Part shown: piece by piece, positions 16,164 to 18,296 of the stretch
Layout: each line of letters starts with the position of its first letter
Numbering within the stretch: the first letter of the stretch is position 1
Assembly (NCBI GenBank): GCA_016928355.1
Contig: JAFGKW010000036.1
Span: forward strand, 62,001-126,000
Length of the DNA stretch: 64,000 nucleotides
Reading direction: 5' to 3'
Origin: Methanomicrobiaceae archaeon
Lineage (GTDB): Archaea > Halobacteriota > Methanomicrobia > Methanomicrobiales > Methanomicrobiaceae
The notes under the pieces: model-generated
The model's input: the letters and a program-made list of their open reading frames with translations, nothing else
What the model was told of the DNA's origin: nothing
Database searches by the model: none
Position numbers and translations under genes: made by a program

Positions 16164-16277
16164 GGTGGCTGTGGAGGTTTTACCTGGAGAAATAACCTGA
16201 TTTTACAAGTAAAAACATAAAAATGGGGAGTTTGGTGAAATGTTTCCCTATATTTATCATAAGGGGTACGTGTGTTT

Positions 16278-16430
16278 CATGTGAATTACGGGGACCCTGT
16301 TTGAGAGGTATATCGCTATGGTGCGATTTTTTTGCTCATGCAAATTTGGGCATTTGGAGGATTTATGTTCTAGAGTTATGGAACTGGTTTTTGAGGTGCT
16401 GGAGAGGGTCCCCGTTATGTGTTGTTGTAG
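16278..16430 (+). ncRNA. Candidate structured non-coding RNA
   Basis: Perfect 11-bp inverted repeat ACGGGGACCCT (16288-16298)/AGGGTCCCCGT (16405-16415) enclosing hairpins ATCGC/GCGAT, CAAAT/ATTTG and GTTC/GAAC; TATA-like tatatttat at 16249-16257. Confidence 0.45.
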
Positions 16431-16437
16431 AGGTTTT

Positions 16438-16463
16438 CCAATAGACTAAAAAACTGCTATTGG
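16438..16463 (+). repeat. Perfect 7-bp inverted repeat CCAATAG/CTATTGG
   Basis: 16438-16444 and 16457-16463 with 12-nt loop, downstream of the candidate RNA. Confidence 0.7.
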
Positions 16464-16517
16464 TATTGCATATAATAGGTTGTCAGGAGTAGTATTTATA
16501 TTTTTATCTTATTGCCT

Positions 16518-16560
16518 TGCAATGAAAGATGCAATGTGTTGTGCGATGTGTATGGCAATG
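16518..16560 (+). promoter_or_regulatory. Four 12-bp-phased (T/G)GC(A/G)ATG repeats, candidate operator
   Basis: TGCAATG 16518, TGCAATG 16530, TGCGATG 16542, GGCAATG 16554; each exactly 12 bp apart. Confidence 0.5.
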
Positions 16561-16583
16561 TCGAAATCAATAAGTAAGGGATT

Positions 16584-18296
16584 ATGGAAATGATATTAGT
16601 AATAATGGATTCCTACGCTGCAGAATTATCAAGGGTTATTGAAATTCTAAAGGAGAATCCCCGTGGTCTTTCTGTGTCCGATATTGCGGCACGTATATCT
16701 GTAAACAGAAATACCGTCTCAAGATACCTCGATATGCTCCGGATATCCGGTCAGGTCGATATGAGGATGTACGGGAAAGCAAAAGTATTCTTCATCTCCC
16801 AGCGTGCGCCAATTTCGGCAATGATAAATTTCTCCTCTGATATGGTCGCTGTTATCGACATGGATTTCACGGTGGCGCAGGTGAATGACTCTCTCTGCTC
16901 TTTCCTTGGAATTGAGAGAGCAGATATAATAGGCAAAGAGCTTAGGGAATCACCTCTTGTTGGTTTTGATCATCCGCTCATAAACGAAAGGATAAAATCC
17001 GCTCTTGACGGAGAGGAGAGCAGCGACGAAATCCGCATAATGAAGGTTGATGAGGAGAAGCACTTTAAGATAAGAATAATTCCTACTGTTTTAAATGATT
17101 CCTCGTCAGGTGCGACAATAACTCTTGAAGATATCACAAAGAGGAAGAAGGCGGAAGAGGCCCTGATATCCAGCGAAAGGAATTACAGGTCTCTTGTCGA
17201 GGAGATCAACGATGCAATATGGGATCTTGACGATAATGCAAGGTTTACATATGTCAGTCCGCGGACAAATGCAATACTTGGAGTTCAGCCTGCAGAGCTT
17301 CTTAACAGGCCGATATATGATATTCTCGACGATGAAGGCGCATCTGCATTAAAAAAGTGTGTCGGGACATGCAGGAACAACGGCGGAAGTCCGGAGCTGT
17401 TCAACTGCTCTGTAATGCACAGTGACGGACATATGGTAATTCTTGAATCAAGTCTCTGCAGGCGCTATGATGAGTTTGGAATGGGCTCAGGTTACAGGAT
17501 AGTCTCAAGGGACGTCACAGAGCGAGAGAAGGCCCACAGCGGCCTTTTCAAATGGAAGTCCTTCCTAAATTCTGTTGTCATGAACATACCCGCAATGGTT
17601 CTTGTCAAGGAAATGGAGAAAGGCACTTACATTTACTTCAACAGGGAGACCGAGGATTTTTTCGGTATTGACGGGGCTATGGCCACCGGCAAGATGGGCT
17701 GGGAGCTGTTTCCGGACAGGTTCGTAGAGTATCTCATCTCCGGGGACAGGGAGATTGCAGGGACCAGAGCACCTGTATCAATGCCGGAGATCAGGATAAA
17801 AATTTCCGGAAAGGGTGAGAGGATCATAAAATCACGGAAGGTCCCCATATTCGGAATGGATAAAAACCTGGAATATATCCTGACTCTTCTTGAGGATATT
17901 ACTGAAGAGAAGAAAGCCGAAGAGGAGATAATCGCACAAAGGGACCAGGCCCAGAGCTACCTTGATCTTGCCGGGGTCATGATTGCGGTAATCGACAGGG
18001 ATGGACGGGTAAGCTGCATCAACAGGAGGGGCTGCAGCATGCTTGGAGTGAATGAGAAGGATATAATCGGAAAAGACTGGTTTGAGACTGTCATACCCTC
18101 TTCAGTAAGTGACAGGCTCAGGAAGCAGTATTCGAGGATAATATCCGGTGAGATTACACCTCCGCTAAACGATGAAGGTGTGATTATTAACTCAGATGGA
18201 ATGGAAATACCGGTATTGTGGCACAATTCCATCATCAAATCCCCTGAAGGGGAGATTACAGCAATCGTATCTTCGGCATCGCAGAAGGATTCCTAA
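16584..18296 (+). CDS. HTH domain plus multiple PAS domains, transcriptional regulator
   Basis: N-terminal HTH: ILKENPRGLSVSDIAARISVNRNTVSRYLDMLRISGQV; then several PAS domains; no kinase core. Confidence 0.87.
   Translation: MEMILVIMDSYAAELSRVIEILKENPRGLSVSDIAARISVNRNTVSRYLDMLRISGQVDMRMYGKAKVFFISQRAPISAMINFSSDMVAVIDMDFTVAQVNDSLCSFLGIERADIIGKELRESPLVGFDHPLINERIKSALDGEESSDEIRIMKVDEEKHFKIRIIPTVLNDSSSGATITLEDITKRKKAEEALISSERNYRSLVEEINDAIWDLDDNARFTYVSPRTNAILGVQPAELLNRPIYDILDDEGASALKKCVGTCRNNGGSPELFNCSVMHSDGHMVILESSLCRRYDEFGMGSGYRIVSRDVTEREKAHSGLFKWKSFLNSVVMNIPAMVLVKEMEKGTYIYFNRETEDFFGIDGAMATGKMGWELFPDRFVEYLISGDREIAGTRAPVSMPEIRIKISGKGERIIKSRKVPIFGMDKNLEYILTLLEDITEEKKAEEEIIAQRDQAQSYLDLAGVMIAVIDRDGRVSCINRRGCSMLGVNEKDIIGKDWFETVIPSSVSDRLRKQYSRIISGEITPPLNDEGVIINSDGMEIPVLWHNSIIKSPEGEITAIVSSASQKDS

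Follow-up and report, generated by a model that had tools for sequence, protein, structure and literature searches.

The DNA analyzed here, referred to as the window, is a 64,000-nucleotide stretch of a Methanomicrobiaceae archaeon genome (contig JAFGKW010000036.1, positions 62,001 to 126,000), in which a gene of the major facilitator superfamily (MFS) is followed by a plus-strand gene (16605-18296) for a regulator that combines a helix-turn-helix with PAS domains (HTH-PAS). Comparison with relatives indicates that positions 16209-16472, between these two genes, are very probably a conserved structured RNA locus, and there is good reason to place on its minus strand a noncoding RNA (ncRNA) gene of about 260 nt, divergent from the HTH-PAS gene and predicted to begin near 16471 and to terminate in a U-tract. 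The gene was defined from its fold, from homologues in sister genomes and from a layout shared by four families, in which the distance between the conserved ends varied from roughly 120 to 470 nt. The ncRNA is apparently undescribed: no earlier description was found in the literature searched, which left most subscription journals outside its coverage, Rfam 15 gave no family at gathering score in the window, and relaxed thresholds (E up to 3) applied to 34 loci of the four families returned sub-threshold chance matches only.

A first-pass annotation of this DNA had proposed a new structured ncRNA gene around a perfect 11-bp inverted repeat, ACGGGGACCCT (16288-16298) and AGGGTCCCCGT (16405-16415), with three further inverted repeats inside it, and all of these were found exactly where it had placed them. 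Its view of the RNA as new and structured was supported, as the 11-bp stem covaries in relatives and Rfam offers no match, whereas the strand, promoter and ends it assigned are probably wrong. Folding of 16278-16430 gave -56.3 kcal/mol (z-score -5.4) on the plus strand and -34.2 kcal/mol (z -5.9) on the minus strand, and because 0 of 200 dinucleotide shuffles reached the value of either strand, the structure around the inverted repeat is not a product of chance. With both strands folding well, the window alone leaves the strand undecided.

Comparison points to the minus strand, and not to an RNA lying upstream of the HTH-PAS gene in the same direction as the annotation had it. Wider relatives were reached through the neighboring HTH-PAS protein and a promoter pattern described below, which brought the comparison set to more than 80 loci, spread over four families of what is probably the order Methanomicrobiales. 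The full predicted ncRNA folded on the minus strand with a z of -3.8, and a homologue from the same genus gave -4.86 on the RNA strand versus -0.44 on the opposite one. Among 64 loci folded on both strands the mean z was -2.84 for minus and -1.88 for plus, the minus strand being the better in 47, while three clade alignments set against column-shuffled controls gave z of -11.4, -5.2 and -5.2 on the RNA strand and -8.6, -2.9 and -3.4 on the opposite strand. In helices picked out automatically, a strand-neutral comparison of G-U with A-C cells gave noisy counts (47 vs 52) that favored neither strand. It is this fold bias and the clade-alignment scores, together with the minus-strand order of the promoter elements and the position of the U-tract, that favor the minus strand.

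The candidate promoter of the ncRNA, a B recognition element (BRE) and TATA box (GATAAAAATATAAATA read on the minus strand), lies at 16493-16508. Read from the repeats on the minus strand, the shared pattern is AATGCnnnGC(A/G)(A/T)TR-nnn-RAWA-nn-WWTAWAW, that is, BRE and then TATA in the correct order, and it aligned without gaps in 63 extracted sequences, one misplaced anchor excepted; the window's automatic anchor (L041) sat on a different site, and its own copy of the pattern is at 16493-16523. At the other end, a U-rich terminator candidate, ATTTTTATGTTTTTAC, occupies 16209-16224 on the minus strand, and of 77 loci, 54 had a T5 run no more than 70 nt from the 3' motif and 24 an A5 run. At the sequence level, the ncRNA has the promoter and terminator of its own that an archaeal trans-acting small RNA (sRNA) requires. 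The first-pass annotation had instead taken tatatttat (16249-16257) for a TATA box and predicted a start near 16278; that motif is present, but it is not conserved in two genomes of the same genus and falls inside the 3' hairpin of the minus-strand RNA.

Compensatory changes further support the predicted fold. Hairpin P1 (CCAATAG/CTATTGG; 16438-16463) was found by folding and in sister genomes, where CCAATAG/CTGTTGG makes a G-U pair on the minus strand only. The 11-bp repeat forms a long-range helix, P2, with its 5' arm at 16405-16415 and its 3' arm at 16288-16298 on the minus strand; in the sister-genome alignment the window has ACGGGGACC/GGTCCCCGT and the relatives GCGGGAACC/GGTTCCCGC, amounting to two double compensatory changes, and covariation was significant in two other groups. 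Inside P2 lie the minus-strand hairpins UUUGC/GCAAA (16331-16344), seen in the sequence and in a sister-genome fold, and AUCGC/GCGAU (16312-16327), present in window and sister folds; nearer the end, alignment and fold place a 3' hairpin at 16246-16266 on the same strand (CCC/GGG, or ACCCC/GGGGU in sister genomes). The 16 sequences of family f4 retain a terminal helix, hairpins on the 5' side, a helix resembling P2 around the CACACCUCUC segment and the 3' hairpin, with 11 double-change cells versus 2.3 expected, and the 11 sequences of genus g17 (family f3) retain P1 and the long-range P2, with 11 versus 4.2; no shuffle in 500 matched either count, in a test of association that ignores relatedness. 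The proportion of cells paired was 96.9% in f4 and 97.3% in g17, values biased by prediction of the structures from the same alignments. P2 sequences are unrelated across genera yet complementary in many of them, and in a full-length duplex test, which was partly informative, 10 of 26 representatives showed left-right pairing at p<=0.05.

The element is single-copy in its own genome by DNA search, which speaks against a transposon or repeat, and occurs at 82-85% identity in two other genomes of the genus. In both of these it lies ahead of the same HTH-PAS gene, but its neighbor on the far side varies, being the MFS gene in the window and a gene for another protein in the sister genomes. A nucleotide search beyond the genus returned short chance matches only. 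Upstream of HTH-PAS homologues, the order read on the plus strand is GGTACGTGTGTT, GAGAGGTRT, a hairpin near the gene, an AT-rich box, the repeats and the gene itself. A pattern built from two conserved motifs matched once per genome and was confined to the window's family save one stray, while the promoter pattern, with at most one mismatch, was found in 95 of 113 genomes of the four families (f1, f3, f4 and f5), mostly once, compared with 3 of 119 genomes of the order's other two families. The window's own copy has more than one mismatch and is left out of the former count; a reversed-pattern control gave no match in this 232-genome search, and beyond the order a phylum-wide draw gave scattered matches, each with a single mismatch. 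Matches in f3 include g17, where a strict-threshold protein search had missed the regulator and where an RNA of this kind with an evident U-tract lies beside a shorter HTH-PAS-like protein. Two g17 genomes (L131 and L144) carry the same promoter pattern with a short RNA form of about 120 nt, from which the CCUCUC-type segment is absent at its usual place. Between families, motifs alone align.

The region between the two promoters has features of a shared operator. A palindromic operator candidate, ATTGCAAGGCAAT, found by aligning relatives and by pattern search, abuts the ncRNA BRE at 16511-16523, and an array of GCAATG/GCGATG units with a 12-bp period (units at 16519, 16531, 16543 and 16555) extends over 16519-16560, providing candidate sites for a shared regulator. 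For GCAWTG-type units between both promoters, 12 bp was the commonest spacing (69 cases, whereas no spacing in a control region exceeded 4), and the last unit before the RNA forms the palindrome AATGCnnnGCATT, flush with the BRE; this palindrome has few other sites without the rest of the promoter pattern. The direct units at 12-bp spacing, in the window and at the same place in relatives, look like an operator array of the HTH-PAS protein, whose adjacency suggests that it may bind them, and binding immediately upstream of the BRE is established for archaeal activators such as Ptr2. Second genomic matches of the operator-promoter pattern with one mismatch (G018:C4:132463 and G011:C64:16908) are possible further targets of the regulator.

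Further conserved segments were found on the minus strand: GGAAAACCUCUACAA after P1 (16425-16439, from comparison of the relatives' upstream DNA), AUACCUCUCAA (16301-16311), which is anti-Shine-Dalgarno-like and mostly unpaired, and ACACACGUACC near the 3' end (16265-16275, from motif comparison). The motifs (A/U)ACCUC(U/A)CA and ACACGUACC (AUCACACACC in f4) recur at matching places, ACACGUACC being, like ACACCUCUCA, mostly unpaired. ACCTC was counted 109 times versus 28 expected, and its unpaired probability is 0.71 versus 0.50 for the whole RNA. CACCUCUC resembles the 3' end of 16S rRNA, the anti-Shine-Dalgarno sequence, and this likeness suggests that the conserved unpaired ACACCUCUCA may pair with Shine-Dalgarno sequences.

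Support for the RNA family and its promoter is good; the targets and mechanism that follow are inferred. The ncRNA would be a structured, probably trans-acting sRNA; on a redox or metabolic cue, the PAS regulator would bind the repeats, switch the sRNA on and adjust expression of its own gene; and P2 would hold the anti-Shine-Dalgarno-like CACCUC(U/A)C segment with which the sRNA covers ribosome-binding sites of target mRNAs. This full model, in which a divergent PAS regulator acts through shared 12-bp-spaced sites on an sRNA that masks ribosome-binding sites, has in our view an even chance of being correct. More tentatively, the RNAs might represent a class of large regulatory RNAs at the level of an archaeal order, each joined in a fixed two-gene module with a DNA-binding PAS-domain regulator, with sensor, operator array and RNA forming one redox- or metabolite-responsive circuit that controls methanogen translation. 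Among archaea, few regulatory RNAs are known to extend past a single genus, and the literature searched yielded none whose partner is a conserved regulator. In methane producers of four families the present one occupies a constant position and brings with it candidates for a transcription factor, an operator and a pairing segment, so that sRNA control in methanogens is open to direct test.

Several observations weigh against this interpretation. In several clades (f3 and some of f5) good folds are obtained on the opposite strand too, P2 varies in topology from genus to genus and some families did not yield it, the excess of ACCTC is partly one motif inherited by all loci, and both conserved segments could bind protein instead of mRNA. 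The last point leads to the main rival, a possible but less probable one, in which the minus-strand RNA is a protein sponge or scaffold whose CACC/ACACC repeats titrate an RNA-binding protein. Across 75 loci CACC was found 354 times versus 234 expected, several ACACC copies occur in g17 genomes and long unpaired segments are conserved; on the other hand, CACC copy number varies from 0 to 9 in the loci listed, one CCUCUC-type and one ACGUACC-type copy alone are conserved, and the proposal comes without a candidate protein. The logic would resemble that of CsrB and RsmZ, sponge RNAs that are large and structured, carry repeated short unpaired motifs and are controlled by sensor pathways. The ncRNA is likewise large and structured with repeated short unpaired motifs, under proposed sensor control, but the bacterial motif is GGA while that of the ncRNA is C/A/U-rich and not fixed in copy number, and a CsrA-like partner was not identified.

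A plus-strand ncRNA or riboswitch-like 5' leader of the HTH-PAS gene is improbable. It would give RNA and gene a common direction, and it draws on the equally good plus-strand fold of the window and on opposite-strand clade alignments that still beat shuffles. However, a candidate BRE/TATA belonging to the HTH-PAS gene lies some 35 bp ahead of its conserved ATG, the BRE-TATA order at 16493-16508 is that of the minus strand, the U-tract is at the left end, and the sister-genome plus strand folds no better than shuffles. Riboswitches and other cis-acting leaders were ruled out, as far as sequence can do so, by this separate downstream promoter and the divergent orientation. Slightly less probable still is an element acting at the DNA level only (an operator, or a replication or recombination site) and giving no RNA: operator repeats and palindromes are genuine DNA features, but the helices stay paired through double and G-U changes, BRE/TATA and U-tract frame a transcript, and the element occurs once per genome. 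A guide RNA for rRNA modification or processing is very unlikely: the conserved unpaired segments could serve as guides, but the ncRNA matches the flanked 23S rRNA locus by complementarity over 9-11 nt, no better than the 9-13 nt of the reversed ncRNA, and no snoRNA family of Rfam matched above threshold. A small protein gene is just as doubtful: open reading frames (ORFs) of up to 76 aa exist on the RNA strand of some loci, but their lengths range from 5 to 76 aa, 213 of 233 alignment gaps are not multiples of 3, and sister genomes lack a counterpart of the window ORF at 16223-16444, which to the first-pass annotation had looked noncoding. Archaeal RNase P RNA (RF00373), likewise a large structured archaeal RNA of similar length, is a separate locus, with an above-threshold match elsewhere in 8 of 8 genomes tested, in agreement with the annotation.

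Among the closest described systems is sRNA162 of Methanosarcina mazei, which masks ribosome-binding sites and also targets the 5' untranslated region of the cis-encoded MM2442 (PMC3510493). That RNA belongs to a different order, and no Rfam or sequence link to the ncRNA was found; it acts on the mRNA of a regulator, whereas in the present proposal control runs from the regulator to the sRNA, and the present RNA differs in its long-range helix and four-family conservation. The C/U-rich-seed sRNAs of Gram-positive bacteria, RsaE/RoxS and FsrA, have an unpaired C/U-rich segment complementary to the Shine-Dalgarno sequence and are controlled by redox or metal regulators. The ncRNA likewise has a mostly unpaired C/U-rich segment that may pair with such sequences, and a regulator of redox or metabolic type is proposed for it, but these RNAs are bacterial and without homology to it, and its own targets are putative.

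The HTH-PAS protein contains PAS_4, PAS and PAS_9 domains and a winged helix-turn-helix (HTH_IclR/HTH_24) according to Pfam, and 27 of 28 genomes in the family, as well as further families, gave strong matches to it; a scan of genome contigs with the protein returned distant PAS proteins only. Its BRE/TATA candidate (CGAAATCAATAAGTA; 16562-16576, plus strand) is CGAAAnnnATAA-like in relatives, where this box lies just 5' of the start codon. The ORF opens at 16584, probably ahead of the predicted transcript start; the conserved start, ATG 16605 (MDSYA), would leave the mRNA a very short leader. In three orthologues (L046, L060 and L065) the matches cross one in-frame TGA or TAG, which may reflect frame breaks, assembly errors, gene ends or pseudogenes.
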